From an uncultured Prevotellaceae bacterium (GTDB lineage: Bacteria > Bacteroidota > Bacteroidia > Bacteroidales > Bacteroidaceae), in NCBI GenBank assembly GCA_947167835.1, contig CAMVJO010000005.1, positions 1-40,897 on the forward strand: DNA of 40,897 bases. Direction: 5' to 3'. The translations under genes were made by a program, and so were the position numbers. Position 1 is the stretch's first letter. Each line of letters begins with the position of its first letter. Below are positions 1 to 16,337 of this stretch, piece after piece. Below the pieces are notes generated by a model. That model did no database searches and was not told the DNA's origin. It saw only the letters and a list, made by a program, of their open reading frames with translations.

Positions 1-454
1 ATTTGCTTCGAGGAACATCTGTATCCTGCTGTTCCAACGTTTTGCTTATTACAACGTAATCTGTATTACTTAATCCTTTGAAAGTATCTCCTACATCAAG
101 TGAGAAATCATACAGAAGCTTTTCAGTATCTGTAGCCTCATCATAAAGATATACTTTCCTATCTTCCTCGCGAAGCCATGTAGATAAAGCCGGAAAAGAT
201 TCAGAATCTAAAACATAATCAAAATAGTTGATTTCTGTATATTCCTTTCCGTTGAATTCACTCTTACGCAAGTCAAATATATACGTAAATAATTCTATTG
301 GAAGCATTTCCTTTTCTTTAAGGTTGAATACCAGCACAGACCAACACTTATCGCTTTGAATCAAAGGCTGATATGTTTCCTGTGCAGACGAACCCACACA
401 AAATGCCATGAATAAGCTTAGCATGACAAATCTAAGGAGTACTTTGTTTTTCAT
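1..454 (-). CDS. Secreted hypothetical protein, 3' end cut off by the window
   Basis: The gene is read on the minus strand from the ATG at 454-452 and stays open to base 1, giving 151 codons with no stop. The N-terminus (MKNKVLLRFVMLSLFMAFCVGSSAQ) is a signal peptide ending in the SSAQ cleavage context common in Bacteroidota. The mature part carries motifs such as NGKEYTEINYFDYVL, WLREEDRKVYLYD and LLYDFSLDVGDTF. This pattern is often seen in Bacteroidota secreted proteins that end in a type IX sorting domain; that is my recollection, and the C-terminus is outside the window. A TAnnTTTG box lies 32 bases upstream. Function unknown. Confidence 0.75.
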   Translation of the reverse strand, partial: MKNKVLLRFVMLSLFMAFCVGSSAQETYQPLIQSDKCWSVLVFNLKEKEMLPIELFTYIFDLRKSEFNGKEYTEINYFDYVLDSESFPALSTWLREEDRKVYLYDEATDTEKLLYDFSLDVGDTFKGLSNTDYVVISKTLEQQDTDVPRSK

Positions 455-485
455 AATACTTTTCAATTAGTGGTTAAACTTGTGG

Positions 486-493
486 CAAAGATA
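486..493 (-). promoter_or_regulatory. Predicted -7 box for the minus-strand gene starting at 454
   Basis: On the minus strand the bases read TATCTTTG, matching the Bacteroides -7 consensus TAnnTTTG. It would place the transcription start about 25 bases before the ATG. No TTTG was seen at the usual -33 distance, so support is the -7 box and its position only. Confidence 0.4.
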
Positions 494-714
494 GTAAAAG
501 AAATCATATCTTCTCTATTTTGCCATGGATTTAGTTGTATATATATATTTATGGTGTATGATTGAAATTATCAGAATGTTCCGTCGGCAAAGTTAGAGCA
601 AGTATTTTACAGCAAATGTTAAAAACGTTATAGAAAAATAGGCTAAAGTTGTAGATTTTTAGTATGTTTTTGCTAAAACCATCCATTTTATCGATATCAA
701 ATTTACTTTATTAG

Positions 715-722
715 TATTTTTG
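715..722 (+). promoter_or_regulatory. Predicted -7 box for the TPR lipoprotein gene
   Basis: TATTTTTG matches TAnnTTTG and lies 30 bases before the ATG at 753. The -33 element is not clear. The divergent region 455-752 is AT-rich and holds no other feature I can support, apart from a second minus-strand TAnnTTTG match at 588-595. Confidence 0.4.
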
Positions 723-752
723 TAAACAAAAAACCTTTTTATTTTCTCAAGA

Positions 753-2441
753 ATGAAAAAGATATACTTACTGTTGATAACAGCTTTCTTTTTGATTAAT
801 GCGTGTGAGCAAAAAGAAAATCATTATGATAAAGAAATAGCAGATAACCTGAACGATGTTTATCGTTGCCTTTATATAAATGTGGATTCTGCTGAAAGAA
901 TCCTCCACCAATCAGACAGTTTGCTTTCGAATGCAACAGAATTGGGAAGAAACAGGTATTTGCTTGCCTCATATCATGTCAGGAACAATAAATGGGAGCC
1001 ATTACAATTAACTGATACTTTACAAAAATTACATTCATTCATAGAACAGCATGGTACACAAAGTGAAAAAATGCGCATGTACTATTTAGTCGGACGCTGC
1101 TTTGAACGGCAAGGAGATATACTCACGGCACTGGAATGGTTTCAAAAGGGATGGGATCTTGCACAGCAGGAAAAAGAATATGGATTTGACTATTCCATTT
1201 ATTCCTATATAGGATCTAAAATTGGTTTCATATTAATGCAGGAAGGTGCATGCCTCTTAGCAAAAGATTACATTATCAAAAGTATTCAGTATGTGAATTT
1301 GCAATCTGATTCCATAACAGCATATTGCGACAAAGCTAATGCATTTTTTATAATAGAGAAATATGACAGTGCTAAGCATTATGCAGATTATTTTTTAGAA
1401 TTAATAAAGAATCAAACCATTGAAGAAAGTTATTTTAAGCCTGCCTTATGGTCAGTGATGTCAATATATGAAGAGCTTGATGATTGGAAAGGTGCAGAAA
1501 TGTGTATAAAATATATTTCACCGAGCATAAACGACTGCTCTTCTTTGTTTTCGATATATTTGTATGCTAACTGGTTAATTCATTGTGGAGATTTGACCGA
1601 AGCAAATAAGGTCCTAAATAATACATCAAAGGAGGGGACAACAAAACACAGATATGAATATACCAAAAGTCTATTTCGTTTGTATCACGAGAAAAATAAT
1701 ATCGATAGTATCGTACGATATGCTAATATGTGCATTCAATATGAAGATTCTCTGCTCAAAGAAACAGATTATTCCCAAGGACACATTGTAGATAGGCTTT
1801 ATAACCTCAAAAAAGCACAGCAAAAAGAGAATGAGGCCCTGAAAGCCAAAATCAAAGCCATTTGGATGGCAATTGTTACGGTGATTTCACTGATTTTTGT
1901 CACCATGCTGCTCATTTTTGTGCGTAGAAAATATCGAAAGATTACACAAATCTTGAAGAAAGAAAACCTAAAAAAAGATGAAAACGTTGCATTCCTAAAA
2001 AAGAATATGAAAATGATGACAAAGAATCATCAAAACCTGATTGACAAAACAAATGATTTGATGAAAAAGGAACAACAAAGGACTTTACCCTACGATTATA
2101 AAAGCGTTTTAGAACAAATCAAACTGAAATCATTGAATACAAATAATATCGAAAAAGAAGATAAAGAAAAGGTAAAAGAAATCTGTGACCATCTCTACCC
2201 TGATTGGGAAAGTAAACTTGAAACTTTAATCCCAAACGTCAGTGTTCATCACAAAACCGTATGTATGCTCACCTTATTAGGATTTAATACAAAAATGATG
2301 CAGAACTATACCCAAAACAATAAACACAGCATATCCTACAGTCGTAAATACTTGAATGAGAAACTAAGCAGAGAAAATAACAGTAAGGAAGAATTCTTGA
2401 AAAACACCTTAGAAAGCATTTTCGGACCATTACAAGATTAA
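753..2441 (+). CDS. TPR-repeat lipoprotein with a central transmembrane helix (probable signalling or regulatory protein)
   Basis: 562 aa. The signal peptide ends in a lipobox-like FLINAC with Cys18, suggesting export and lipidation. Residues about 30-350 are helical and read as degenerate TPR repeats (YYLVGRCFERQGDILTALEWFQKG is the clearest). One hydrophobic helix follows at about 370-391 (MAIVTVISLIFVTMLLIFV), then basic RRKYRK and a Lys/Glu-rich coiled coil. The C-terminal 90 residues include VCMLTLLGFNTKMM, which resembles a weak helix-turn-helix. Bacteroidota have many TPR-TM-HTH proteins that may link the envelope to gene control; placing this one there is inference. If the lipobox is real, the protein is anchored at the N-terminus and also crosses the membrane, which is unusual. 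MITE copy A follows the stop. Confidence 0.85.
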   Translation: MKKIYLLLITAFFLINACEQKENHYDKEIADNLNDVYRCLYINVDSAERILHQSDSLLSNATELGRNRYLLASYHVRNNKWEPLQLTDTLQKLHSFIEQHGTQSEKMRMYYLVGRCFERQGDILTALEWFQKGWDLAQQEKEYGFDYSIYSYIGSKIGFILMQEGACLLAKDYIIKSIQYVNLQSDSITAYCDKANAFFIIEKYDSAKHYADYFLELIKNQTIEESYFKPALWSVMSIYEELDDWKGAEMCIKYISPSINDCSSLFSIYLYANWLIHCGDLTEANKVLNNTSKEGTTKHRYEYTKSLFRLYHEKNNIDSIVRYANMCIQYEDSLLKETDYSQGHIVDRLYNLKKAQQKENEALKAKIKAIWMAIVTVISLIFVTMLLIFVRRKYRKITQILKKENLKKDENVAFLKKNMKMMTKNHQNLIDKTNDLMKKEQQRTLPYDYKSVLEQIKLKSLNTNNIEKEDKEKVKEICDHLYPDWESKLETLIPNVSVHHKTVCMLTLLGFNTKMMQNYTQNNKHSISYSRKYLNEKLSRENNSKEEFLKNTLESIFGPLQD

Positions 2442-2466
2442 AGCATGGGGAAATATCTTTCATTAA

Positions 2467-2518
2467 GGGTAGTTCTAAAAATTAGGTTTTAAAATTTTGT
2501 GAAGCTTTTTTTTGTCTG
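2467..2518 (+). mobile_element. MITE-like element, copy A (left end only, truncated)
   Basis: Begins GGGTAGTTCTAAAAATTAGG and continues as in copies C and F for about 52 bases, then stops matching after GTCTG. It is preceded by TTAA, as in the complete copies B and D. No right end was found downstream, so this is a remnant. It lies between the 3' ends of two convergent genes. Confidence 0.75.
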
Positions 2519-2561
2519 CCCATGAACTGGGTTACAAGATTTCGCACCTCGCCACAAACAC

Positions 2562-2594
2562 AAAAAAAAAGCCCCGCAAAACAATTTGCGGAGC
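2562..2594 (-). terminator. Rho-independent terminator of the minus-strand sigma operon
   Basis: On the minus strand CCGCAAA pairs with TTTGCGG around a 4-base loop, followed by GC and an unbroken run of nine T. It lies 34 bases past the stop of the Spy-like gene, as expected for the end of the 4115-2629 operon. Confidence 0.85.
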
Positions 2595-2628
2595 AGAGAA
2601 CCATCTTACAATATTACCAAAAACTAAT

Positions 2629-3147
2629 TTATTTGTGGTTCTTTTTATGATTTCTCATTTCATGAAAAACTTTTCTTCCGAAACGTTCATCGGCATCCTT
2701 GATGCGTATGATTTTTGAGGCGGGCAATCCCAAGTTACGTAACTGCTTGTAACATTCCACTTCGGCATTTGCGGCCTGAAGTGTCATACTTTCTATTTCA
2801 CGTAGCATACGTTCGCAGTCACCCTCGGTCAATTGTTCTTTACGCAGGCGCTTTGATGCTTTAATTATCTTGGAGCGATAATCACGTTGCTTATCTTTCA
2901 TAGCAAGATAGACTGGCATCGCTTTTTCTGCCTCCTGCTGCGTGAGACCTGCCTCGCGGATGATGAAATTACGGAGTTTTTCTTCAAATTCACGGGGATT
3001 GAATTGCGGACGTTCGGGACGTTTTTCTGCACGTGCGCCTTCTTTTTTGTTTTGCTGGAAGAATTCAACCTCAGGTGCGGAATAAACTACATTACTGAGG
3101 GAGAACACAGCAACAATGAGTAATAAAAATCTTTTTATGTCTTTCAT
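2629..3147 (-). CDS. Periplasmic Spy/CpxP-like protein of an ECF sigma operon
   Basis: 172 aa with an N-terminal signal peptide (MKDIKRFLLLIVAVFSLSNVVYS). The mature part is highly charged and helical, with a segment EEKLRNFIIREAGLTQQEAEKAMPVY followed by Arg/Lys-rich helices. The shape recalls Spy/CpxP-type periplasmic chaperones and the heavy-metal-sensor helical fold; the match is by pattern only. It is the last gene of a three-gene minus-strand operon, 12 bases after the membrane protein, and is followed by a strong terminator. Its position suggests an envelope stress output or feedback role for the sigma factor (inference). Confidence 0.75.
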   Translation of the reverse strand: MKDIKRFLLLIVAVFSLSNVVYSAPEVEFFQQNKKEGARAEKRPERPQFNPREFEEKLRNFIIREAGLTQQEAEKAMPVYLAMKDKQRDYRSKIIKASKRLRKEQLTEGDCERMLREIESMTLQAANAEVECYKQLRNLGLPASKIIRIKDADERFGRKVFHEMRNHKKNHK

Positions 3148-3159
3148 TTTAATAATTAC

Positions 3160-3516
3160 TTAGGGGTTTTCAATGATATCTACGTTATCCAGCAGCATAT
3201 AGTCGTAGGCATTATCGGTTTCCACGTCACTATTTACTGCAACTGCTGAGGAAACGTTTTGTACATAAGGAGTAGATGCTGCTGCCTCGGCCTTAAACGA
3301 ACGAGAGAACAGGACTACGAGCGTAATCATGGCAGCAAATCCTATTACCCTGCCCACTTCCGCACGAATGCGCTGACCTAAAGGAATGATTCTTGCCGGC
3401 TGCACTTCGGTTTCGGGGATCAAATTCATCATACGAGACGAGAACTGTTCAAAATAGTCGTCAGGTACAACGAAAGGGTCGGCCTTCAGATGTTTATTTT
3501 CCAATATCGAATTCAT
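3160..3516 (-). CDS. Small single-pass membrane protein, probable anti-sigma partner
   Basis: 118 aa. The N-terminal half is cytoplasmic in character (FVVPDDYFEQFSSRMMNLIP, a motif common in short Bacteroidota proteins next to ECF sigma genes). One hydrophobic helix lies at about 56-72 (IGFAAMITLVVLFSRSF), followed by a periplasmic tail ending DYMLLDNVDIIENP. It sits between the sigma gene (71-base gap) and the Spy-like gene (12-base gap). The anti-sigma role is inferred from order and topology; no ASD or zinc motif is visible. A possible internal -7 box, TACGTTTG, lies at 3557-3564 on the minus strand. Confidence 0.75.
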   Translation of the reverse strand: MNSILENKHLKADPFVVPDDYFEQFSSRMMNLIPETEVQPARIIPLGQRIRAEVGRVIGFAAMITLVVLFSRSFKAEAAASTPYVQNVSSAVAVNSDVETDNAYDYMLLDNVDIIENP

Positions 3517-3587
3517 ATGACTATGCTATTTCAAAGTTTGTCTGATTTATCTCTTTCAAACGTAAGATATTTTTCTCTTAAAAAGGT

Positions 3588-4115
3588 TTAATCGTTATTT
3601 TCAAAAAACTCTTCGATTTTTTTCACGGCGAAATGATAGGAAGCCTTCAAAGCACCGACGCTTGTTTGGAGTATTTCGCTCATTTCCTCGTATTTCATTT
3701 CATCATAGTACTTCATATTAAACACGATGCGCTGCTTTTCGGGCAGTAGGCTCACGGCTTTTTGCAGTTTTGTCTGCAACTCGTCGCCGTCAAACCACGG
3801 ATCACTTTCAAGTGTCCGCTCGGCTTCGCTATCGTCCAGGGAAACGGCGGCTTTCTGCTTGGCGAGGAACGCAAGGCTCTCATTCAGCGCGATTCTGTAG
3901 AGCCATGACGAAATCTGTGCCTCACCTTTATAATTGTCCAAGCCCGCCCACGCTTTCAAGAACGTCTCTTGCAAAACGTCGTCGGCATCTTCGTGCCAAA
4001 TAACCAGACGACGAATCTGCCGGTACAGCTGTGGCGAATATTTCTGCACCACTTCTGTAAAGGCTTCCCGACGTGTTGTCGGATTCATAAGACGTTCATA
4101 TAAAGGCTCCGTCAT
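3588..4115 (-). CDS. ECF-type RNA polymerase sigma factor (sigma-70 family)
   Basis: 175 aa, normal for ECF sigma factors. Region 2 spans about 19-88 and contains YRQIRRLVIWHEDADDVLQETFLKAW and SSWLYRIALNESL. Region 4 spans about 115-165 (LPEKQRIVFNMKYYDEMKYEEMSEILQTSVGALKASYHFAVKKIEEFF), with the helix-turn-helix in the second half. First gene of the operon with a membrane protein and a Spy-like protein. I see no ECF-type AAC/CGTC self-promoter upstream, unlike the second sigma gene in this window. A terminator-like hairpin ends a few bases before the ATG, so transcription through the leader may be controlled. Confidence 0.92.
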   Translation of the reverse strand: MTEPLYERLMNPTTRREAFTEVVQKYSPQLYRQIRRLVIWHEDADDVLQETFLKAWAGLDNYKGEAQISSWLYRIALNESLAFLAKQKAAVSLDDSEAERTLESDPWFDGDELQTKLQKAVSLLPEKQRIVFNMKYYDEMKYEEMSEILQTSVGALKASYHFAVKKIEEFFENND

Positions 4116-4126
4116 AAAATCAAAAA

Positions 4127-4152
4127 AAACGGGACTTGAAAATCCCGTTTTA
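4127..4152 (-). terminator. Terminator-like hairpin in the sigma gene leader
   Basis: Minus strand: AAAACGGGA pairs with TCCCGTTTT, then a T run, and the sigma ATG follows within about 12 bases. It could be the old terminator of the upstream gene (4729-4403), now separated from it by MITE copy B, or an attenuator of the sigma operon. The sequence alone does not decide. Confidence 0.6.
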
Positions 4153-4202
4153 CTTATTATTGAAAATTGTTGTTGCTAAAAATCCGGCTTAGCCTGATTT
4201 AA

Positions 4203-4387
4203 GGGATGTTCTATAAATTACGTTTTTAAGAAACTGGTCTCTATTTTATTCTGCTTGTTTTTGAAATCTTTTTGCCGTCTTTAGCTTTAATTCCTTGAAC
4301 CGTAGCTCGCTACGCTCCTTCGTCATTAAAGCTAAATCCAATCAAAATCTAAACAAAAACAATGCAGCCTAATTTTTAGAACATCCC
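4203..4387 (+). mobile_element. MITE-like element, copy B (complete, diverged)
   Basis: 185 bp. Left end GGGATGTTCTATAAATTACG, right end CCTAATTTTTAGAACATCCC, flanked by TTAA on both sides (4199-4202 and 4388-4391). The interior is the most diverged of the six but keeps ATTCCTTGAACC and the central hairpin as CGTAG-CTCG-CTACG. No ORF. It lies between a secreted-protein gene and the sigma operon, both on the minus strand. Confidence 0.8.
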
Positions 4388-4402
4388 TTAAGAAGTTCTA
4401 AC

Positions 4403-4729
4403 TCATAGAACGGAAATTCTTCTAACGAGATTGCCAACCTTTACTATGTAGCAACCTTTAGTAAGATTGAGGCCAGCGCTTTCATCGTTGGAGGAAATCT
4501 TGATAGAGGCAATCTTTGCTCCGGTTATGCTATAGACTTCGAGTACAAGTCCCTGGGCATTTTGCACGTGTATGTCATTTCCTTTCACTTGCAGCCTGAC
4601 AGGAGTAACATTCTCGGGTTCTCCAAGAATTTCCATACCTTCGTTGGATGCTACTACGGCTTCATCGGCAGCAAAAGCGCCGGTAAAACTGAAAAGGCTA
4701 ATGATTAAGAGAAGTATATATTGCTTCAT
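4403..4729 (-). CDS. Small secreted protein ending in a type IX-like sorting domain
   Basis: 108 aa from the ATG at 4729-4727. This start gives a clean signal peptide (MKQYILLLIISLFSFTGAFA) and is preferred over an in-frame ATG at 4795, which would add 22 non-signal residues and sit almost on the predicted transcription start. The second half (VYSITGAKIASIKI ... GLNLTKGCYIVKVGNLVRRISVL) has the beta-strand pattern of the Por/type IX type A C-terminal domain. Almost the whole mature protein is this domain, leaving only about 30 residues of cargo, so function is unknown. Predicted -7 box at 4808-4815. Confidence 0.75.
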   Translation of the reverse strand: MKQYILLLIISLFSFTGAFAADEAVVASNEGMEILGEPENVTPVRLQVKGNDIHVQNAQGLVLEVYSITGAKIASIKISSNDESAGLNLTKGCYIVKVGNLVRRISVL

Positions 4730-4807
4730 AGGCTTTTTGTCTGTTTTATGTGTCCGAAAGTAAGCAGAAATAGCACGTTTCGCGACACTATACAATTATT
4801 CTTGGGG

Positions 4808-4815
4808 CAAAGGTA
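4808..4815 (-). promoter_or_regulatory. Predicted -7 box for the small secreted protein gene
   Basis: Minus strand TACCTTTG, matching TAnnTTTG. It implies a leader of about 70 bases to the ATG at 4729. Confidence 0.4.
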
Positions 4816-4958
4816 AAAATAAATTTCTTATTACGGAAAATATTTTGCCTTTTTTTTCGTTACACGCCCAAAAAGAGGGTTAAAAGGCGGGATTATCAGA
4901 TTATCCAGCGGATTTATTCTGTTCTTTTGGAGCGAAACCTATCTCCTACCCGACTTAA

Positions 4959-5933
4959 TTATTCCTTAATGAAGATATCCTTGAGAATACTCATGGACTC
5001 AGGATTATCCTGTACGAAGGAATCTATATGACGCATACGCTTTTGTTCAAGAATCTCGTCCACCGCAATCAAGATGCCGGTTTCTTCAACTTCGCCGAAC
5101 TCATGATTTACGGCTGTGCCGAAAACGCGCATGGTAGGACTGAGTCCCATATAAGCATTTACGAGCGGTGGAATATTAAATCCCGTCTTGCGCACGTTGG
5201 TGTTGAGCAAATAATAATCTTCCTTGAAGTTATCCTTATTAAACAAGGCCCGCAATTCTTCCTCGGGCGTTTCGGTTTGCAAAGGACAGATGGGCGTAAC
5301 GAGATTGTCGTTGTCTGCAAAATGCTTGTGCAGGAAAAAGAGAATCATGTCGCGCGCCTGACGATTAAAGGAGGGATACATGGTCATCTTGCCGAAGAAA
5401 TACTTCGTTTCGGGCATGATAATAGTAAGTGCTCCGAGGCCATCCCAAAGATTGTCGAGGGCATAAAGACTTTTGTAGGACTTTTGAGAACTTTGGTACT
5501 CAAGCGTTACAAAAGAACGGCCGAGTTCCACCGTCTTGTCCATATATTTCTCTATAAACTCCTTAGAGAAATGGAACATGTGTCCGGTTGCCAAGATGGG
5601 TTGTCCCTGCGAATCGTATTTAATGTCCTTTCCAAAAATAAAACGGTAACCTCCCAAAATTTCTTCTGTCTGCGGACACCATACGATAAGCTGATAATAG
5701 GCATTAGGGCCTACATCAAATTCGTCAAGGTCACAGTCTTTTCCCGTACCTCCCCCTGCCGTGCGAAAAGCTATCTCGCGCAGACGACCTATCTCCCGCA
5801 AAACATTGGGAGAATCCTTATACGTAACGATATAAATCTCGTTATTACTTTTATTGGTGGTTCTGAGGCGCTTATCGGGCGTCAGTTCCTTTTTAAGCAG
5901 GTCGCGGCTTACAGGAGGTATGATTTGCTGCAT
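4959..5933 (-). CDS. glsB: GlsB-like N-acyltransferase (glycine lipid synthesis)
   Basis: 324 aa. It belongs to the OlsB-like GNAT family often labelled hemolysin: IYIVTYKDSPNVLREIGRLREIAFR at about 33-57, AYYQLIVWCPQTEEILGGYRF at about 78-98, and VELGRSFVTLEYQ at about 135-147 are the acyl-ACP GNAT signature. In Bacteroides thetaiotaomicron the equivalent enzyme, GlsB, attaches a 3-hydroxy fatty acid to the amino group of glycine, the first step to glycine lipids and flavolipin. It lies 15 bases after the PlsC-like gene in the same direction, the pair seen in Bacteroides, which supports the call. Substrate identity is from family knowledge. Confidence 0.85.
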   Translation of the reverse strand: MQQIIPPVSRDLLKKELTPDKRLRTTNKSNNEIYIVTYKDSPNVLREIGRLREIAFRTAGGGTGKDCDLDEFDVGPNAYYQLIVWCPQTEEILGGYRFIFGKDIKYDSQGQPILATGHMFHFSKEFIEKYMDKTVELGRSFVTLEYQSSQKSYKSLYALDNLWDGLGALTIIMPETKYFFGKMTMYPSFNRQARDMILFFLHKHFADNDNLVTPICPLQTETPEEELRALFNKDNFKEDYYLLNTNVRKTGFNIPPLVNAYMGLSPTMRVFGTAVNHEFGEVEETGILIAVDEILEQKRMRHIDSFVQDNPESMSILKDIFIKE

Positions 5934-5948
5934 ATTATATAAGGAGAG

Positions 5949-6779
5949 TTATTTTTTTTCGGGTATCTTGTAAACGATATCTTCTACATAAAGTGCCCAT
6001 TCGCGGTGGGTTTTACAGCTATCGAAGGTTTGCCAGGGAATAGGCTTGCCAATATGAAGCGTAAATGTCTTTCCGCGATTCTTAAACATCTCATCCACAA
6101 GAAAAAGCATGGCGATATTGAATTTTATGCCAAGTTTCTTGCTGATATTGGCCAGACGATAGAAGAAATTGGAGTTCTGTCCTTCAAAAAACATGGGAAC
6201 GACATCGCGATGTGTCTCAACGCTTTTGCTCACGAAGGTCTTTTTCCAGGGAAGGTCGTGAATCACACCGTTATTGCGGCGCGAACAGAGGTCGGCTGGG
6301 AAGATGATGACATTATTGTCGGAGTTGAACATTTCATCTACCTGAACGGCAAAATTGTGTCCCTGCTTTCCGAATTTATTGACGCCAATAAAGAAAGGAG
6401 CCAAGCCATGAATATTCATAAGCAGGTCATTCACAATATATTTAATGTGTCCGTTGTATTGATGTCCCAACACTTGTCCGATAGCCACGCCGTCGATACC
6501 GCCAAGAGGGTGATTGCTGACGAAAGTGTAGCGCTTTCCATCATCAGGTGCGGGAAGGTTCTCCCTACCTTCGACATGGAGCGTCATATCAAGAAACTCC
6601 AGAGCATCATCCAGCCAGGGAACGCCTTGTTTGTCGCCTTCCTGAACGAAGAACTGGTTGATTTCGTCCTGATGTATGATCTTTTTCAGCCAATTCACAA
6701 CAAAACCCGGAACATAGCGGGCTTTATCTCCTGCTTTGTCTCGGAGAATCTTATTGATATCAACAGTAAATACTGACAT
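5949..6779 (-). CDS. glsA: GlsA-like O-acyltransferase (PlsC family)
   Basis: 276 aa. Acyltransferase motif I appears as FVSNHPLGGIDG at about 89-100, motif III as VIIFPADLCSRR, and a VPMFFEGQNSNFFYRLA block follows. No signal peptide; probably a peripheral inner-membrane enzyme. In Bacteroides, GlsA adds the second fatty acid to N-acyl glycine. First gene of the glsA-glsB operon. The predicted -7 box is at 6890-6897 and the roughly 105-base leader holds repeats phased at 21 bp. Alternative: a general lysophospholipid acyltransferase, made less likely by the adjacent glsB. Confidence 0.83.
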   Translation of the reverse strand: MSVFTVDINKILRDKAGDKARYVPGFVVNWLKKIIHQDEINQFFVQEGDKQGVPWLDDALEFLDMTLHVEGRENLPAPDDGKRYTFVSNHPLGGIDGVAIGQVLGHQYNGHIKYIVNDLLMNIHGLAPFFIGVNKFGKQGHNFAVQVDEMFNSDNNVIIFPADLCSRRNNGVIHDLPWKKTFVSKSVETHRDVVPMFFEGQNSNFFYRLANISKKLGIKFNIAMLFLVDEMFKNRGKTFTLHIGKPIPWQTFDSCKTHREWALYVEDIVYKIPEKK

Positions 6780-6790
6780 GTAAGGAATGA

Positions 6791-6865
6791 TGTTTGTTTT
6801 GTTGATTGTTGCGTTTGAACTGACAACAACAATGTTTGTTTTGTCGTTATGGGTGTTTGTTTTGT
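6791..6865. repeat. Three exact 12-mers plus one degenerate copy, phased at 21 bp, in the glsA leader
   Basis: TGTTTGTTTTGT starts at 6791, 6833 and 6854. A degenerate copy (CGTTTGAACTGA, 7 of 12) starts at 6812. All four starts lie on one 21 bp grid, two helical turns. In the glsA transcript they would appear as ACAAAACAAACA blocks between the predicted start and the ATG. Confidence 0.75.
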
Positions 6866-6889
6866 CGGACTGAAAAGCCCTATTTCCTG

Positions 6890-6897
6890 CAAAATTA
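6890..6897 (-). promoter_or_regulatory. Predicted -7 box for glsA
   Basis: Minus strand TAATTTTG matches TAnnTTTG. No good -33 TTTG at 19-21 bases. It would put the whole 21 bp repeat set inside the 5' leader. Confidence 0.4.
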
Positions 6898-7068
6898 CTT
6901 TTTTCTTACAAAATAACTAACGAAATCACAGGTTTTTTCGCAAGAAATATGATAGAAAGTCAATTTAATTAGAAAAAAACATTCTTTCGATGCAGGAGAA
7001 AGTGAGTTTTTCTGCGCACGATGGTTTCAGACAAGCACAAAAACGAGTTGGAAACGCAGACAAAAAAA

Positions 7069-7152
7069 TTCTCATCGCGATGAGAAAAGATTATCATGGC
7101 GATGAGAAAATTTTCTCTTCGCGATGAGAAAGTTTTCTCAACGCGAAGAGAA
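7069..7152. repeat. Array 1 of four 22 bp palindromic units (TTCTC..GCG..GAGAA family)
   Basis: The motif GATGAGAAA or its variant starts at 7079, 7101, 7123 and 7145, exactly 22 bp apart. The first unit is the perfect palindrome CTCATCGCGATGAG. The others vary in the middle (ATGGCGAT, TTCGCGAT, AACGCGAA). It lies just past the aminotransferase stop at 7159. The rest of 6898-7068 is AT-rich with nothing else I can support. Confidence 0.85.
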
Positions 7153-7158
7153 TGAATG

Positions 7159-8355
7159 TTACGCAAGTTTTTCGAGCGCAGTCTTGATGCGGGAAATGGC
7201 TTCGCGTATATTTTCGTCGCTTGTAGCGTAACTCATGCGGAAACAGTCGGGCGAACCAAAAGCATCGCCGCCTACTGTTGCTACATGTGCCTCTTCAAGC
7301 AAATAAATGGCGAGGTCTGTGCTGGTTTTGATGACACGTTTCCCGTCTGTCTTGCCGAAAAAGCTGCTGCAACGCGGGAAAAGATAAAACGCACCTTGAG
7401 GATTGTTCACTTCCAGCCCACTAATCTCGCGGGTGAGCGACACAATCAGATTTTTTCTGCGTTCAAATGCCTGACGCATCTCCTCTACACAATCCTGAGA
7501 ACCGAGATATGCGGCTAAAGCTGCCTGCTGGCTGACAGAAGATGGGCCACTGGTATACTGACCTTGGAGTTTTGTGCAGGCTTTGGCTACCTGTAAGGGA
7601 GCGGCTACGAAGCCAATGCGCCAACCTGTCATTGCGTAGGCTTTAGATACACCATTTATTATAATAGTGCGCTCCTTCATTCCCTTACATGTGGCAATAG
7701 AAGCGTGGTGTCCTACATAATTGATGTGTTCGTAGATCTCGTCGCAGACAACCCAGACCTGCGGATGGCGAAGCAGGACTTCGGACAGTTTTTCGAGTTC
7801 TTCCTGGCTGTAAACTGAGCCTGTAGGATTACTGGGTGTGCACAAAATCAGCATTTTGGTGCGCGGAGTGATCGTAGCCTCGAGTTGTTCGGGCGTAATC
7901 TTGAAGTCTTGTTCGATAGTGGCCTCTACCGTCACAGGAGTGCCGTCTGCCAAAAGCACCATTTGGGGATAACTCACCCAATATGGGGCAGGAATAATGA
8001 CTTCGTCGCCTTTCCCCACTAAAGCCATGACAGCATTGCAAACAGATTGCTTGGCACCATTGGAAACTACGATTTCGTCGGCCGTATATTCCAAGTTGTT
8101 TTCGTTTTTCAGTTTGGCAACGATGGCTTTACGCAGGTCTGCATATCCTGCTACGGGAGAATAACGTGTATATCCCTCGTCAATGGCTTTTTTGCCGGCC
8201 TCGCTGATATGAAGCGGCGTGTTGAAATCGGGTTCGCCGACAGAGAGATTGATTACATCGACACCCTGTTCCTTGAGTTCGGCACTTTTTTGAGACATCA
8301 CCAACGTAGCCGAAGGTGAGAGGCGGTTAAGTCTGTCTGATAGTATGGTATTCAT
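7159..8355 (-). CDS. aspC: PLP-dependent aminotransferase, aspartate aminotransferase type (class I/II)
   Basis: 398 aa, full length for fold type I class I/II. Visible residues: substrate-loop LSVGEPDFNTP at 37-47, Asn176 in TPSNPTGS, Asp205 in VVCDEIYEH, the PLP Schiff-base Lys238 in NGVSKAYAMTGWRIGF, and a C-terminal Arg in CFRMSYATS. Cytoplasmic. It most likely converts aspartate and 2-oxoglutarate to oxaloacetate and glutamate; substrate range cannot be fixed from sequence, so the symbol is tentative. It lies 29 bases after the BI-1 gene, so they may be co-transcribed. The 22 bp palindrome array 1 follows its stop. Confidence 0.88.
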   Translation of the reverse strand: MNTILSDRLNRLSPSATLVMSQKSAELKEQGVDVINLSVGEPDFNTPLHISEAGKKAIDEGYTRYSPVAGYADLRKAIVAKLKNENNLEYTADEIVVSNGAKQSVCNAVMALVGKGDEVIIPAPYWVSYPQMVLLADGTPVTVEATIEQDFKITPEQLEATITPRTKMLILCTPSNPTGSVYSQEELEKLSEVLLRHPQVWVVCDEIYEHINYVGHHASIATCKGMKERTIIINGVSKAYAMTGWRIGFVAAPLQVAKACTKLQGQYTSGPSSVSQQAALAAYLGSQDCVEEMRQAFERRKNLIVSLTREISGLEVNNPQGAFYLFPRCSSFFGKTDGKRVIKTSTDLAIYLLEEAHVATVGGDAFGSPDCFRMSYATSDENIREAISRIKTALEKLA

Positions 8356-8384
8356 AAATATCCTATTAACAAAATTAGATTCAC

Positions 8385-9119
8385 TTACTTTCTGTCACCG
8401 AAAATACGTAACAAATACAAAAAGAGGTTCACAAAATCAAGATAAAGCATCAGACTGCCGGACAAAGCCAACTTCATCTGATTTTCCTCGGTATAATTCT
8501 GCGACTGAATCAGGAGATTCTTGATTTTCTGGGCATCAAAAGCCGTAAGTCCGACGAATATCAAAACGCCGGCGTAGGATATCACGAGATCCAAGCCAGA
8601 ACTGTTCAAAAACATATTGACTACCGTAGCAATAATCAGCCCAATGAGTGCCATAATGAGGATACGTCCGATGGCAGACAGGTCTTTTTTTACAAAACTG
8701 CCGACCAACGCCATTCCAGCAAAGGTTCCCGCAGCGATATAAAAGGTTGTGGCAATGCTGGCTTCGGTATAAACCATGAATACGAGGGACAACGTTACGC
8801 CATTCAGTATGGAATAAACGATAAAGAGCACTCCAGCCACAGGGAACGAGAGCTTTTGAATAGCAGCCGAGAGACTTAATACTAAAGCGAACTCACCAAT
8901 TATAGCACCCCAGAAGATAAAAGGATGTTCTCCGATGAGATTCAAAAATGCATAAGACTCCGACAAATAAAATGCCGTCATACCAGTCACTACAAGTGCC
9001 AAAGTCATCCATAGATACACATTACGCATCAATGTGGCGACACTTTTTTCTCTTACAATCAATTCTTCTGCCGATGAAAAGCCGGCAGCTTCAGAATTCT
9101 GGAAATAATTATAATCCAT
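8385..9119 (-). CDS. Bax inhibitor-1 / YccA family membrane protein
   Basis: 244 aa with seven predicted transmembrane helices starting at about residue 33. Family signatures: TLMRNVYLWMTLALVVTGMTAFYLS, GAIIGEFALVLSLS, YSILNGVTLSLVF and FVGLTAFDAQKIKNL, with the conserved acidic Asp near the C-terminus. In bacteria the family includes pH-sensitive calcium leak channels and the FtsH-interacting YccA; which role applies here is unknown. Upstream of the aminotransferase with a 29-base gap. Confidence 0.9.
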   Translation of the reverse strand: MDYNYFQNSEAAGFSSAEELIVREKSVATLMRNVYLWMTLALVVTGMTAFYLSESYAFLNLIGEHPFIFWGAIIGEFALVLSLSAAIQKLSFPVAGVLFIVYSILNGVTLSLVFMVYTEASIATTFYIAAGTFAGMALVGSFVKKDLSAIGRILIMALIGLIIATVVNMFLNSSGLDLVISYAGVLIFVGLTAFDAQKIKNLLIQSQNYTEENQMKLALSGSLMLYLDFVNLFLYLLRIFGDRK

Positions 9120-9244
9120 CTTTGTTCTATTTATTATTTATGTTTTACTTTCTGATTTTATATTCGAGCATAGGATAAAAGATGCCAGGAATTTATACAC
9201 TTGAATAGGGTAAATATATTTTCCCCAAGCGATATCCTCCCGCA

Positions 9245-9391
9245 GGCCGTATCCTTATTTTTTTAAGCCATATCTTTATTCCTATAGCCTGTATCTTTAA
9301 TCCTTTAGCTTGTATCTTTATTCCTTTAGCTTGTATCTTTATTCCTTTAGCTTGTATCTTTATTCCTTTAGGCCGTAACTTTATTTTTTTA
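9245..9391. repeat. Seven tandem 21 bp units running into the end of ribBA
   Basis: Units start at 9245, 9266, 9287, 9308, 9329, 9350 and 9371. Units 4-6 are identical (GCTTGTATCTTTATTCCTTT plus A). Units 2-3 differ slightly. The two outermost units share GGCCGTA and TTATTTTTTTA. The last unit includes the ribBA stop codon at 9381-9383 and its last two Lys codons. Interval 9120-9244 shows no other feature. Confidence 0.88.
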
Positions 9392-10583
9392 GGTGCAAAG
9401 TATGCCCCATTCTATTCTTCTTAGTCAGAAGATACTGCTCGTTGTATGGCGTTGGCTCAATCTCAATGGGAACGTTCTCCACGATTTCAAGTCCGTAAGC
9501 CTCTAAACCGACACGTTTCACGGGGTTATTCGACATTAGCCGCATACTGGTGACGCCTATCTCGCGCAAAATCTGAGCGCCCACGCCATAATCGCGTTCA
9601 TCCGGGTCGTAACCTAAATGTATGTTGGCATCAACGGTATCAAGTCCCTCTTCCTGGAGTTTATATGCCGCGATTTTTGCCATTAAACCGATGCCACGTC
9701 CTTCTTGGTTCAGGTAAAGAATCACTCCCTTGCCGGCTTTTTCCACCATCTCCATAGCTTTATGCAGTTGTGCCCCGCAATCGCAACGTTGACTGCCGAA
9801 AATATCACCTGTCATGCAGGAAGAATGTACACGAACGAGGATTGGCTCGTTTTTCTCCCACGTACCCTTGATTAGTGCGATGTGTTCTTTTCCATTGCTC
9901 TTTTGACGGAAAGGTATCAGGCGAAAATGTCCGAATTCCGTAGGCATATCAACTTCTTCTCCGCGTTCCACTAGAGTTTCGTACTGCAAACGGAATGCTA
10001 TCAAGTCTTTTATCGTTATCAACTTCAGACCAAATTTCTGAGCGAACGCCACTAATTGTGGCATTCGCGCCATTGTTCCATCTTCGTTCAGGATTTCTAT
10101 CAGACAGGCGGCGGGCTGTAAACCGGAGAGTCTGGCCAAATCTACAGCAGCTTCGGTATGTCCGGCACGAGCCAGCACTCCTCGTTCTTGAGCGTAGAGC
10201 GGAGAAATATGACCTGGGCGTCCAAAAGTTTCAGGTCGGCTTTCCGGATCGGCTAATGCCCTGATAGTTGCAGCTCGGTCGGCAGCACTGACACCTGTCG
10301 TGCAGCCTTCGAGTTTATCTACCGTCACAGTAAATGGTGTGCCGAGCATACTGGTATTTTCCTCCACTTGATGCGGAAGATTCAACGCAGCAGCGCGTTC
10401 TATCGTGACGGGAGCACAAAGTACTCCGCGACCGTTTTTCAACATGAAGTTCACAGCTTCTGGTGTCGTCAACTCTGCGGCCATTATCAGGTCGCCTTCG
10501 TTTTCGCGCTCTTCGTCATCTACTACTATCACGAACTTACCGTTTCGGAAGTCTTCGAGTGCTTCGGGTATGGTTGATATCAT
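9381..10583 (-). CDS. ribBA: RibBA: 3,4-dihydroxy-2-butanone-4-phosphate synthase / GTP cyclohydrolase II
   Basis: 400 aa fusion of the two enzymes that start riboflavin synthesis. The N-terminal DHBP synthase (about 1-200) shows [10 protein letters not shown] at 22-31, [10 protein letters not shown] at 94-103 and [11 protein letters not shown] at 139-149. The C-terminal GTP cyclohydrolase II shows the zinc cysteines 256, 267 and 269 in [14 protein letters not shown] and NQEGRGIGL at 292-300. Both active sites look intact. Cytoplasmic. Its last codons lie inside a seven-unit 21 bp repeat, so the array has either spread into the gene or grown from its end. The gap to the upstream LptF-like gene is 105 bases. 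Confidence 0.95.
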
Positions 10584-10688
10584 AATTTGTACTCCTTATA
10601 TAATATATACTGACACGAACATTTTACAATCTTAGAACGACATAGGTAAATAACTCTTGGGATAACATCGGATGAGCACCAAAGTTTC

Positions 10689-12689
10689 TTAACTTTCGTC
10701 CGTTTCTTCAGATTTTGTAAAGCGTTCGGCCTGTATTTCCTGTTGTATTTGTATGAGTAGTTCGTCACTTGTTTTCTGTATCACTTTGATATCGCGGAAT
10801 AGTCGCAGGCGGAATCGCCAAATGCGTGCCCAAAGAATCAATCCGAACGGGAAAACGATTCCTGCAAGGATATTCCAGCGATGTAAGTCGAAGGGAGTGG
10901 TATGGGCATGGACGTAAATCTGCGGATACTGGTTGATAAGATGCAGAATGTTCTTGCTACGGGTATTTGAAAGTTCCGTAACGATATTTTCGAGCGTCTC
11001 GCCGATTTGTTCCACCTCACGATCTATATTGTGCCTGAAGAAAAGTCTGAAATAGTTGGGAGCTAAATACAATTTATGTCGCTCATTATAACTATGACAG
11101 GCAGCCTTCAGATTTTCTATGCGTTCATAAACGGCAGGATAGTCGGGATTGTCGATGATAACTTCCTTACGCGGAATGTTTCTCTTGGTGCGCCATCCGA
11201 AGAAGCGGCGCATAGTCTGCATATATACGTCGATATTGAATACTACCGAGTCGCCATTTGATTTATATGTCAGGAAAACACCGAGTGGCGCCAAGACAAC
11301 CGTACTTAGCCACATACCAAAAACCATATTCCAGCTGCCATCGCGCGCCATCTTCATGCCACTGGTATTTAGGATGAAGTAAAATACGAATATGATGACA
11401 CTAATGACAGCGGGAAGCCCAAGTCCGCCTTTTCTAATGATAGCTCCAAGCGGAGCGCCTATGAAAAAGAAAATAATGCACGCCAGTGACAACGTCATCT
11501 TCTGATGCCATTCCACCCAGTGCTTACGTATGAAACTGGCGGTCTGACTTGACATCTGCTGCCTCCAATCCAAATCTATTTTATAACCACTTACCTGCGA
11601 AGCAGCGCTTTGTGTATAAGCCAACTTCTCGTTATTCGGAACGTCGGCCCACAGTTTTTCAAAAGATATGGCGGGAACATTTTTCGTATCTACCTTCTGC
11701 GTTCTGTATTCGCCGTAGGAATAATACGGATCGCTCTTGCGCATTTCGTTACGTGCCTCCGAAGTCTTTTCTCCGTCCAGACGATATACTCTTGCTACGG
11801 CATCATAATAATTTACGCGCCCCAAGCTGTCGAGTTCGGTGGACATCGTATCAACAGACAGTTCTATTTGACGCATATTCTTGGCCTGTGCCATATCGCG
11901 CAGCATATTTGCGTCAATCATGTTGAAGTTGGCGTCGAAATCTATGAGAATCGTTTTCTGAGTAAAGGTTTCTCTGTCGTAAGGTACGTCGCTATTTCGC
12001 AGAGAACCGACCATATTTTGCGATTGCAGGTTCTGAAACTGTTCGCCCTGCCACAAATCCAGCAACAAGTGCTGCTTGTCTTCGGTCATCTCCATCCTAC
12101 CGGAATCTGCCAGTACAATCTGCGCTTTTTCAAAGCCCTGATCCGTTTTATACAGGATGATTTGATACAACATACCCGTAGCAACATTCTTTTTCTGCAC
12201 GTAAAGATTTACGTTGGGCACACCATTATAAAACACCCCTTCGGGAATTTCCAATGCCGGCGAGGTCTGCTTCATACTGAGCAGCAAAGTGGTGAGTTTC
12301 AGCTGAGCTTCGGGCGATGTCTTGTTCTGAAAATAAAATGACGTGCCGCCGAGCATCATGGCTACGCAGATCAGGGGTGCCATAATCCGGATAAGCGGGA
12401 TTCCCGCACTCTTCATGGCCAAAAGTTCCAACTGTTCGCCCATATTACCGAAGGCGATGAGCGATGCCAGAAGGATAGCCAGCGGTAATGACGTGGGAAC
12501 GAGCGTGATGCCCATGTACCAGAAGAATTTGGCAAGGATATCCAGTGTTAATCCCTTTCCCACAAGTTCATCTACGTACCTCCACGTGAATTGCATCATA
12601 AAAACGAATAGGCACACGCAGAAAGATGCAGCAAAGACCAGAAGGAATTTGCTCATCACGAAGCGATCTATTCGTTTTATCAGGATCAT
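10689..12689 (-). CDS. LptF/LptG family permease (LPS export), long Bacteroidota form
   Basis: 666 aa. Opens with KRIDRFVMSKFLLVFAASFCVCLFVFMMQFTWRYVDELVGKGL, the YjgP/YjgQ signature. Helices fall near 15-35, 60-80 and 100-120, then a long periplasmic domain, then helices near 395-480 (IIFFFIGAPLGAIIRKGGLGLP). A C-terminal extension of roughly 130 residues with two more hydrophobic segments (WNILAGIVFPFGLILWARIW) goes beyond the usual 360 aa of proteobacterial LptF/G. These proteins pull LPS from the inner membrane with LptB. Whether it acts as LptF or LptG cannot be told. It lies upstream of ribBA on the same strand. Confidence 0.88.
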   Translation of the reverse strand: MILIKRIDRFVMSKFLLVFAASFCVCLFVFMMQFTWRYVDELVGKGLTLDILAKFFWYMGITLVPTSLPLAILLASLIAFGNMGEQLELLAMKSAGIPLIRIMAPLICVAMMLGGTSFYFQNKTSPEAQLKLTTLLLSMKQTSPALEIPEGVFYNGVPNVNLYVQKKNVATGMLYQIILYKTDQGFEKAQIVLADSGRMEMTEDKQHLLLDLWQGEQFQNLQSQNMVGSLRNSDVPYDRETFTQKTILIDFDANFNMIDANMLRDMAQAKNMRQIELSVDTMSTELDSLGRVNYYDAVARVYRLDGEKTSEARNEMRKSDPYYSYGEYRTQKVDTKNVPAISFEKLWADVPNNEKLAYTQSAASQVSGYKIDLDWRQQMSSQTASFIRKHWVEWHQKMTLSLACIIFFFIGAPLGAIIRKGGLGLPAVISVIIFVFYFILNTSGMKMARDGSWNMVFGMWLSTVVLAPLGVFLTYKSNGDSVVFNIDVYMQTMRRFFGWRTKRNIPRKEVIIDNPDYPAVYERIENLKAACHSYNERHKLYLAPNYFRLFFRHNIDREVEQIGETLENIVTELSNTRSKNILHLINQYPQIYVHAHTTPFDLHRWNILAGIVFPFGLILWARIWRFRLRLFRDIKVIQKTSDELLIQIQQEIQAERFTKSEETDES

Positions 12690-12904
12690 AAACTTTATCT
12701 CAGACTTATTGCCAAAATATTGCCTGCAAATTTACAAAAAAAGCCGTGTATGACATTATTTTTAGGGAAGTTTATGATTTCGCTGTCGTTTTACGGGGTT
12801 TTTCGCGCGTTTTCTCCCGTTTTTTGTACGATTTCTGAAAAATTAGCCATAACAAAACAGGAAAAGCCCGTGCCACGATCCGCTTTCCCCGTTGATTTTT
12901 TCAG

Positions 12905-12987
12905 TCTCATCGCGTTGAGAAAGTTTTCTCACGGCGTAGAGAATCTTTTCTCATCGTGATGAGAAAGTTTTCTCAACGCGAAGAGAA
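12905..12987. repeat. Array 2 of four 22 bp palindromic units
   Basis: Repeated motif starts at 12914 (GTTGAGAAA), 12936 (GTAGAGAAT), 12958 (GATGAGAAA) and 12980 (GAAGAGAAT), all exactly 22 bp apart. The last unit, TTTTCTCAACGCGAAGAGAA, is identical to the last unit of array 1. The 5' flank GATTTTTTCAGTCTCATCGC nearly matches that of array 3. Confidence 0.85.
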
Positions 12988-13041
12988 TGGCGCTGCGCAG
13001 GAGTTTTTCTATTTTTCTGCCATTGACAAGTTGCTTGCCGC

Positions 13042-13072
13042 TTGCTTATTTCCTAAATAATTCGTATTTTTG
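13042..13072 (+). promoter_or_regulatory. Bacteroides-type promoter of the alpha-galactosidase gene
   Basis: TTGC at 13042-13045, a 19-base spacer, then TATTTTTG at 13065-13072 (consensus TTTG, 19-21 bases, TAnnTTTG). An upstream in-frame ATG at 13070 falls inside the -7 box and cannot be the start, which supports the ATG at 13118. Confidence 0.6.
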
Positions 13073-13117
13073 CAGAAACATGGACATTGTCTGAATATGT
13101 ATCACACCCCAAAATAC

Positions 13118-14872
13118 ATGAAAACAAGATTTGCCATCACTGCTGCCGCCATATTTTGCAGCATCAACGCTTTTTCGCAAGAAAGTCCGACGATGGGCTG
13201 GAGTTCCTGGAACACCTTTGCTCTTAATATCAACGAAGATATCATTAAAGGCCAGACAGATGCTATGGTCTCCACAGGACTGAGTGATGCCGGCTACAGA
13301 TTCATCAATATCGACGACGGATATTTCGGTGGTCGCAACCCTGAAACGGGAAAGTTGCTCATACATCCCACTCGCTTCCCGAATGGACTGCGTCCCCTCG
13401 TAGATTATATTCACTCCAAGGGACTAAAGGCCGGAATATACAGCGATGCGGGACACAATACGTGCGGCAACTTTTGGGGAGGTGACAGCATTGGACAAGG
13501 AGTGGGGATGTACGAACACGATCAGCAGGATGCCGATTTGTTTTTTAAGGAGCTCGACTTCGATTTCATCAAGGTAGATTATTGCGGTGGCGTGGCAAGT
13601 AACAATTCCGAGAAGTTGAATCTGGATGAACGCCAGAGATATACAGATATCGCACAGGCCATACGAAATACCGGGCGTACCGATGTGCGTATGAACGCGT
13701 GCCGCTGGGATTTCCCAGGCACATGGATTAAGGACGTGGCTTTTTCGTGGCGTACCACCTTTGATATTTACGATAGTTGGAAGGCCGTGAAGGATATTCT
13801 GGCAGAAAACCTGTATCTCTCGGCATACTGTTACGATGGTCGGTACAACGATATGGATATGCTGGAGGTAGGGCGCTCCATGACGGCAGAAGAAGACAAA
13901 ACCCACTTCGGAATGTGGTGTATCATGACATCTCCGCTGCTTATCGGCTGCGACATGACAAAAATCAAGGAAGAAACTTTGGCGCTCCTGAAGAACAGAG
14001 AACTTATTGCCCTCAATCAGGATTCTTTGCACCTGCAAGCATATATTGCCGAGAAGCAAAACAGTTGTTTCGTGATGGTAAAAGACATTGAGACACGCTT
14101 TGGCAACCGTCGCGCCTTTGCAGTTTATAATCCTACCGATGCACAGAAAACCGTAATGGTGGAATTTTCAAAAATAGACCTTGCAGGCAAAGTTTCCCTC
14201 CGCGATGTGTATGAACAAACCGACTTAGGGGAATTTGAGACGAACTATACCGTCACTATCCCCGCACACGGCACGCGTATCTACGTGGCAGATGCCGAAA
14301 CAAGGCTGGAACGCACACGCTATGAGGCAGAAACAGGATATATCAGCGACTATCAGGAACTGAAAAACAACGAAACCGAAGAAACAGGCGTATATATCAA
14401 AGATTCCAACTGCTCTGGCGGTTACAAAGCTGGATGGCTGGGCAAAAAGAACGACAATGACCTCATTTGGCGCGACGTTTACAGTCTGGAAGGTGGGAAA
14501 TACACGATGACAGTGGCGTTTATTTCGGGTGAAAACCGCAACATAACCATTCATGTGAACGGGGAAAAGGCTAAAACCGTGACACTAAATGGCGATAGTT
14601 GGAGCAATGTGGCAAAAAAAGACGTTGTTATTCAGTTGAAAAAGGGAGTAAATACTATCCGCCTCAGCAATAATGACGGTTGGATGCCGGATATCGACTA
14701 CATAGACCTGGTTTGCAATAATCCGCAGACAGGTATTAAGAAAAAGGTTGCCGAAAACAATAGTTACCCTGGCAATAACATCGTCTATAACCTTGACGGA
14801 CGAATTGACAACAGTAAAAATTCTACACAGCGCGTAGTTATTAAGAATCATCGCAAGCAACTGGTGAAATAA
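13118..14872 (+). CDS. GH27 alpha-galactosidase with a C-terminal carbohydrate-binding domain
   Basis: 584 aa from ATG 13118, which opens a signal peptide (MKTRFAITAAAIFCSINAFSQ). GH27 catalytic barrel at about 24-395: MGWSSWNTF, FINIDDGYFGGR at 62-73, the nucleophile Asp154 in FIKVDYCGG, and RYNDMDMLEVG holding the probable acid/base. Residues about 405-550 (YEAETGYISDY ... GGYKAGWLG ... NTIRLSNNDGWMPDIDYIDLV) look like a CBM35/CBM6-type beta-sandwich. The last 40 residues (NIVYNLDGRI ...) weakly recall a type IX sorting tail. It should remove terminal alpha-galactose from glycans outside the cytoplasm. It has no SusC/SusD neighbours. Confidence 0.9.
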   Translation: MKTRFAITAAAIFCSINAFSQESPTMGWSSWNTFALNINEDIIKGQTDAMVSTGLSDAGYRFINIDDGYFGGRNPETGKLLIHPTRFPNGLRPLVDYIHSKGLKAGIYSDAGHNTCGNFWGGDSIGQGVGMYEHDQQDADLFFKELDFDFIKVDYCGGVASNNSEKLNLDERQRYTDIAQAIRNTGRTDVRMNACRWDFPGTWIKDVAFSWRTTFDIYDSWKAVKDILAENLYLSAYCYDGRYNDMDMLEVGRSMTAEEDKTHFGMWCIMTSPLLIGCDMTKIKEETLALLKNRELIALNQDSLHLQAYIAEKQNSCFVMVKDIETRFGNRRAFAVYNPTDAQKTVMVEFSKIDLAGKVSLRDVYEQTDLGEFETNYTVTIPAHGTRIYVADAETRLERTRYEAETGYISDYQELKNNETEETGVYIKDSNCSGGYKAGWLGKKNDNDLIWRDVYSLEGGKYTMTVAFISGENRNITIHVNGEKAKTVTLNGDSWSNVAKKDVVIQLKKGVNTIRLSNNDGWMPDIDYIDLVCNNPQTGIKKKVAENNSYPGNNIVYNLDGRIDNSKNSTQRVVIKNHRKQLVK

Positions 14873-14920
14873 AGACGCGTTTCCACTCAACAGCTCTACA
14901 TTCATTTACATTATCCCACT

Positions 14921-14938
14921 CCTTATTATATTATAAGG
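14921..14938 (+). promoter_or_regulatory. Small hairpin over the AAGG before the methyltransferase start
   Basis: CCTTAT pairs with ATAAGG around TATATT. The AAGG strand ends five bases before the ATG at 14943. It could mask a ribosome site, but Bacteroidota use such sites weakly, so the effect is uncertain. Confidence 0.3.
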
Positions 14939-14942
14939 CCAC

Positions 14943-16265: not shown

Positions 16266-16337
16266 CAAACTTTTTCTGCATCCCATACATTTTACCATCC
16301 TTCAGAAAAAAAACTGAAAAAAACTGAGATTTTTTGT

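Follow-up and report, generated by a model that had tools for sequence, protein, structure and literature searches.

The window analysed here, a stretch of 40,897 nucleotides from an uncultured Prevotellaceae bacterium, possesses three arrays that are each built of four imperfect 18-bp palindromes placed at exact 22-bp steps, none of them assigned to a strand. Array 1 (7069..7152; units starting at 7069, 7091, 7113 and 7135) begins 6 bp past the stop codon of an aminotransferase gene (Pfam PF00155), array 2 (12904..12987; units starting at 12904, 12926, 12948 and 12970) is flanked by divergent genes for an LptF/LptG-type permease and an alpha-galactosidase (Pfam), and array 3 (29465..29548; units starting at 29465, 29487, 29509 and 29531) separates two same-strand genes for an MFS transporter and an S9 peptidase (Pfam). 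An initial annotation had reported four-unit arrays at these three loci and placed them after a gene, in a divergent region and between two same-strand genes, all of which proved correct; its coordinates were right for array 1, but arrays 2 and 3 each start one base earlier than it gave. Of the palindromic core that it described as keeping TTCTC and GAGAA, GAGAA does close 11 of the 12 window units, but TTCTC opens only 8. Given this incomplete retention, and since the perfect core CTCATCGCGATGAG is found in 2 of the 12, most window units are imperfect dyads. The consensus TTCTCATCGCGATGAGAA, allowing up to 3 mismatches, matched 11 times in the window against 0.00 expected from 100 shuffles. 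The window also contains MITE-like elements with ends GGGTTGTTCTAAAAATTAG...CTAATTTTTAGAACAACCC (4197-4396, 18282-18570, 19881-20079, 27461-27668 and 40802-40897) and a tRNA gene at 19182-19255, its sole Rfam match at gathering thresholds, and a strandless oscillation of GC content at 21.04 and 10.52 bp runs along its whole length (1..40897). An intergenic 21-bp tandem repeat of 6.9 copies (9249-9392) has a period close to that of this wave.

The source genome is a draft of 2.25 Mb in 157 contigs and is 89.6% complete. The genome-wide search at 22-bp steps that the initial annotation had proposed gave 78 forward and 77 reverse matches to a four-unit pattern (at most 3 mismatches), versus none in the same genome for a reversed-pattern control. 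From these we retrieved 66 arrays, all with 22-bp steps; as 68 of the 78 forward matches belong to them, the genome total is estimated at 76 arrays, about 10 of which fall outside the retrieved set. The genome contains 153 exact units; 137 lie within the 66 arrays, and the other 16 would fit the arrays outside the set. When a two-unit pattern with a variable gap was used instead, the step was 22 bp in every case among the matches listed.

Because the 66 arrays had been preselected by the four-unit pattern, we also surveyed 787 kb (35% of the genome) in stretches of 32 contigs, namely 20 chosen as array-free in the match lists, 11 chosen as array-bearing, and the window. The survey, with single units scoring 12/14 excluded, revealed two word families: family 1 with 30 quartets, one pair (a spurious third unit on contig C33 was left out) and one single, and family 2 (word AGTATCNNCNNGNNGATACT) with 4 quartets plus a triple and a pair. 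The family 2 sites (contig and position C7:2338, C9:29274, C15:162, C43:3431, C39:18751 and C20:7632) include four copies with a common flank resembling GGAAATGTCCCTGCAAAAAATC. A motif-free scan of the 787 kb for four successive palindromes yielded 34 sets with a step of 22 and a single set with a step of 24, the remaining steps from 16 to 29 giving nothing. Four-unit scores were bimodal, with 30 survey arrays at 51-55 of 56 and all else at 37 or below, and half-decayed quartets were absent from the survey by this scoring.

The exact 22-bp step seen in the window thus holds across the source genome in both the retrieved arrays and the survey. Unit number, which had been taken as fixed, is nearly but not absolutely so: four units were found in 64 of the 66 retrieved arrays (the other two have five) and in 34 of the 38 surveyed arrays of both families, and the free variation that the initial annotation had named as a refuting outcome was not seen genome-wide. 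Growth by slippage, as in minisatellites, might be read from the two five-unit arrays, both of which include runs of identical or near-identical units. This near-constancy of four, together with the lack of indels and the combinatorial choice of words, makes such an origin extremely improbable.

Across 254 units from 63 arrays, bases 4, 5, 14, 15 and 17 are invariant, although these are bases that the search pattern itself favoured. The two bases at positions 6-7 and those at 12-13 of the unit are drawn from few words, and the linkers are 4 bp long and come from a small word set. CRISPR was rejected, as the initial annotation had already suggested, since no unique repeat-length spacers are present. 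Its remark that arrays share unit variants in different orders also extends to the whole genome. An array differs from its nearest neighbour at a mean of 8.4 positions, compared with 9.0 (sd 0.2) after unit shuffling; the arrays look like near-random word assemblies, with a mutual similarity slightly above that of shuffled ones.

In the 64 four-unit arrays (the two five-unit arrays were left out of the half-site analysis) the outermost half-sites are CGAA, CGAT or CGAG in 63 cases on the left and 59 on the right. Inverted half-sites facing each other across the three linkers are equal in 2, 1 and 0 arrays, versus 11.5, 9.6 and 12.5 in permutations, and those inside units 2 and 3 are equal in two arrays each versus about 12 when permuted, with a weak effect inside the end units (7 versus 9.1 and 5 versus 9.5). 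Many units of genome G171 are perfect palindromes, and the avoidance of equal inverted half-sites is therefore not a general rule.

The 66 arrays are mostly intergenic; 12 overlap an open frame of at least 70 codons, and 9 of these 12 frames are shorter than 120 codons. Excluding 11 arrays that lack two neighbours, the remaining 55 lie between 37 tandem, 9 convergent and 9 divergent gene pairs, which resembles array-free gaps and indicates no preference for a gene context. Mostly intergenic location and strong predicted RNA folds on both strands, found for all three window arrays (z -7.3 to -9.5), are what RNA hairpins serving as terminators, attenuators or REP/BIME-like elements would show. 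However, gene ends are not preferred in these orientation counts, adjoining inverted half-sites avoid identity, and none of the 7 pairs predicted by RNAalifold from 30 arrays covaries, a weak test given that most pairs are invariant. The REP tyrosine transposase (Y1, PF01797), which matches in 28 of 58 genomes of the genus, has no match in the 89.6% complete source genome, where RAYT-driven REP was rejected on this ground. Taken together these observations render the RNA explanation very unlikely.

Array spacing along the chromosome is regular. The 20 inter-array gaps on 11 surveyed multi-array contigs, counting both families, span 5.3 to 26.4 kb; none is shorter than 5 kb versus 8.8 expected, an outcome reached in 0 of 20,000 simulations that fixed the number of arrays per contig, and the gaps vary about half as much as random ones (P 0.0006). 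Spacing was testable in the source genome alone, arrays being sparse in genomes G041 and G056 (about 4 in G056). Confinement to part of the chromosome was rejected, as 20 of the 46 largest contigs are without family-1 arrays among the matches listed and 17.9 would be expected. Also rejected was a conserved regulon, with no orthologous neighbours between 118 proteins encoded beside source arrays and 101 beside arrays of other genomes, the comparison giving three weak paralogue matches at 23-26% identity.

Among relatives, the four-unit pattern of the source had no match in the 57 other genomes of the genus. A sequence model built from 30 source arrays (E up to 0.001, scoring the best 10 candidates at most per genome) matched in 75 of 399 family genomes and 18 of 30 genera, the source included, and seven congeners match it with other words. 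Conservation in relatives, which the initial annotation had raised, fails for the source words within the genus but extends across the family for quartets with other words; judging from these matches, quartets are not general in the genus. Under a lax palindrome rule, the best 30 loci comprise 20 with four units at step 22 and one with four units at step 23, the rest having five units (3), three (4) or two (1), with one unresolved. The step-23 quartet, from one family genome, is of the style TTCTCA...TGAGAA seen in the source arrays. Four units were likewise found in 15 of 21 further loci, a count that excludes a Parabacteroides distasonis array in which the rule scores three units and a weak fourth can be seen by eye.

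Unit words differ among species, and number and step vary more outside the source genome. At an orthologous locus in genus g30 the array has kept its position and its CGCG cores, with different words in each of the four units; some g30 arrays lie inside a repeated element with common flanks. Arrays of TTNTAGAA, suggested by one relative, were found in none of 58 genomes, and a viral origin was rejected, with no exact match to the two-unit pattern in viral contigs. A Treponema MAG (JAITIK010000099.1, positions 425-718) carries 13.5 tandem 22-bp palindromic units whose word variation is of the same style as in the source arrays.

The GC wave was significant (z above 2) at 21.04 bp in 29 of 34 non-overlapping 1.2-kb blocks of the window, where chance would give 1.8% for each, and its phase drifts across kilobases and shifts at all three arrays. 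Spectra of 28 source segments of 18 kb contain sharp lines at 10.51-10.53 and 21.03-21.05 bp, the strongest reaching 41 times the median at 10.51 bp and 37 times at 21.05 bp. In the survey 433 of 637 blocks exceed z of 2 at 21.04 bp and 507 of 637 at 10.52 bp, compared with 13 of 637 at an off-line control period and 0-9% of blocks in seven comparison genomes that include E. coli K-12. Phase coherence has a half-life of about 4.1 kb at 21.04 bp and about 0.95 kb at 10.52 bp. Within 187 gene blocks third codon positions show an amplitude of 0.154, compared with 0.045 at first and 0.027 at second positions, all in phase; in 28 E. coli blocks the amplitude is essentially nil. As the line is located at 21.04 and not 21.00 bp, the wave is not codon-locked.

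When 530 held-out blocks were folded by the phase of their neighbours (omitting blocks whose neighbours have a weak wave), GC content swung from 0.37 to 0.62 in a dyad-symmetric profile, with T/C before and G/A after the centre, which is the pattern of the array unit. The 409 blocks lying 3 kb or more from any array gave the same profile. A strong 10.98-bp wave with kilobase coherence, strongest at third codon positions, was also found in Prevotella sp. oral taxon 299 (NC_022111), in 137 of 207 blocks of the 250 kb examined.

The arrays stand in register with this wave. Mean GC over 132 flanks peaks at 13-14, 24, 33, 44 and 54 bp from the array, with fitted periods of 21.04 and 10.51 bp that are alike on the left and right. 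The 21-bp oscillation is in step with the arrays in 17 of 17 intervals of 105 bp, out to 1785 bp, and its amplitude over 119 flanks is 0.106 near the array and 0.039-0.070 beyond, against a null 95% level of 0.016-0.025 (flanks too short for the interval were omitted from phase analyses). The phase at 21 bp is 167 degrees for family 1 (120 flanks), 162 for family 2 (6 flanks) and 173 for the relative G041 (16 flanks); at 10.5 bp the flanks of family 2, taken by themselves, fall short of significance (P 0.07). Across 27 arrays the phase shifts by -44 degrees, versus +6 at 50 control points 2.5 kb off, and a shift of about -66 degrees would be expected from four units that each measure 22 bp instead of 21.04.

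The spectral lines of G041 lie at 21.10 and 10.56 bp, and 52 and 29 of 234 blocks pass at them. Genomes G157, G354 and G008 possess arrays and gave no spectral line in the stretches sampled, so quartets do not need a visible wave; oral taxon 299, despite its wave, had no clear quartet in 150 kb scanned, so the wave does not need quartets either.

The palindromic words, the concerted word change at the orthologous array, the defined outer half-sites and the regular spacing would all suit discrete docking sites of a sequence-specific protein, with a role in nucleoid occlusion, macrodomain formation or segregation and no causal link to the wave. The matS, Noc and SlmA sites are of this general kind, being dispersed, short, mostly palindromic and bound by a chromosome-organising protein. 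Those sites are single and not quartets, however, and we know of no helical wave associated with them. Docking sites would leave both the kilobase phase lock and the unit-like dyad pattern of the wave unexplained, and family-1 arrays are unbiased among contigs, so that we regard this account as improbable. With the 21.04-bp wave in register with them, the arrays more likely mark the register of a chromosome structure than act as local binding sites.

A second way to obtain the register is for a small mobile or selfish repeat to insert at a preferred phase of a pre-existing wave, target immunity providing the minimum spacing and the wave being a separate property of the nucleoid. We consider this unlikely, although several observations speak for it: copy number is very different between species, arrays of the source and other genomes share no orthologous neighbour genes, some g30 arrays sit inside a repeated element, four of the six family 2 copies have a common flank sequence, arrays are slightly closer to one another than unit-shuffled ones, and a wave without quartets exists in oral taxon 299. 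Against it, the flanks of family-1 arrays are unique, and across the 66 arrays flank complementarity is no higher than in shuffles, indicating no terminal inverted repeats (TIRs), and flanking direct repeats, at 5-6 bp slightly more frequent than in shuffles (14 versus 9.5 and 7 versus 3.5), show no clear excess that would indicate target site duplications. Moreover, a mobile repeat would hardly account for the absence of half-decayed quartets, and the real MITEs of the survey follow no spacing rule. These elements, 73 in the 787 kb with lengths clustering at 185-189 and 270-272 bp, are randomly placed on the survey contigs (26 of 48 gaps below 5 kb versus 25.5 expected). Their flanks show a borderline phase preference at 21 bp (0.025 against a null 95% level of 0.026; P 0.029 in a second analysis) and none at 10.52 bp (P 0.56), some of the ends used being rounded. 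Adding a presumed TA duplication of 2 bp to the modal lengths of 186 and 271 bp brings them close to 9 and 13 times 21.04 bp, with a deviation of at most about 1.4 bp, and the mean phase jump across 20 MITEs is small (-13 degrees at 21 bp).

Our preferred reading, which we hold to be about evenly balanced between right and wrong, is that a chromatin-like nucleoprotein fibre is nucleated or phased at the arrays. The 22-bp unit would represent a near-ideal form of the degenerate 21-bp dyad pattern (a GC-rich centre with T/C on its left and G/A on its right) found along most of the surveyed chromosome. A putative homodimeric DNA-binding protein would occupy one unit per two helical turns, four successive ideal units would start a cooperative fibre, and this fibre would spread for kilobases in both directions with its rotational register fixed. 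Selection or position-dependent mutation could then write the register into silent sites, cause running from array and fibre to the wave, and the regular spacing of arrays would keep the register set. The initial annotation had envisaged a protein oligomer bound along one face of DNA; such a protein would fit the dyad form of the units, their step of two turns and the helical wave. If the quartet is where a cooperative coat of dimers begins, its unit number, dyad, step, spacing, non-decay and phase lock would have one joint explanation.

It is possible, and we offer it more tentatively, that a periodic scaffold of protein, with a dimer every 21 bp, packs most of the chromosome. The inherited rotational register of this scaffold would be set by regularly spaced quartets and written in the silent positions of codons, and mobile elements between genes may be best tolerated near whole-number repeat lengths. 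If so, the chromatin of some bacteria would have its rotational phase positioned by cis elements, and a structural code would be carried by the choice among synonymous codons.

We recognised no report of such quartets or phase-locked marks in the literature, which was consulted mostly outside subscription papers. As far as the accessible parts of the sources describe them, the closest known repeats are REP, BrickBuilt and PINSR, and the closest known phenomenon is persistent periodicity (PMC3431218, PMC7537859, PMC3733652, PMC4596501, PMC4755523). REP/BIME elements resemble the arrays in being short extragenic palindromes that are of high copy, clustered and often species-specific, to judge from the available portion of PMC3733652, but the arrays differ in their 22-bp step, their mostly four units, their regular chromosomal spacing and their lack of a covarying hairpin. 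The BrickBuilt MITE of Porphyromonas gingivalis, likewise from a Bacteroidales genome, consists of intergenic tandem repeats of similar unit length (23 nt) in 19 elements; its repeat number is described as variable, and TIRs are present in its leader and tail, all of which family-1 arrays lack (PMC4596501). The g30 arrays within repeated elements and the step-23 quartet look closer to BrickBuilt. PINSR of Prevotella intermedia is similarly a lineage-specific intergenic repeat without TIRs (177-184 copies), likened here by its description, as partly available, and not by sequence; unlike the arrays it is a repeat of 188 bp (PMC4755523).

Persistent DNA-curvature-related periodicity is, in the accessible text of its reports, a genome-wide 10-11 bp signal that has been linked to nucleoid structure, as for the 10.9-bp signal across nearly the whole genome of Mycoplasma hyopneumoniae (PMC3431218, PMC7537859); one report, in the part available, argues that selection acts on it and that it does not stem from protein motifs (PMC7537859). 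The source genome has a likewise 10-11 bp signal over most of the surveyed chromosome (10.52 bp), measured on GC instead of A-tracts and in 35% of the genome. It goes beyond persistent periodicity in its 21.04-bp component, its kilobase-coherent phase and its palindromic quartets at one phase, neither phase-locked marks nor kilobase coherence being mentioned in the accessible text of these reports (PMC3431218, PMC7537859). A general question about strong 10-11 bp periodicity in bacteria is whether a nucleoprotein structure truly lies behind it, and it is the register of the wave with visible marks that makes this question testable here at the level of single bases.
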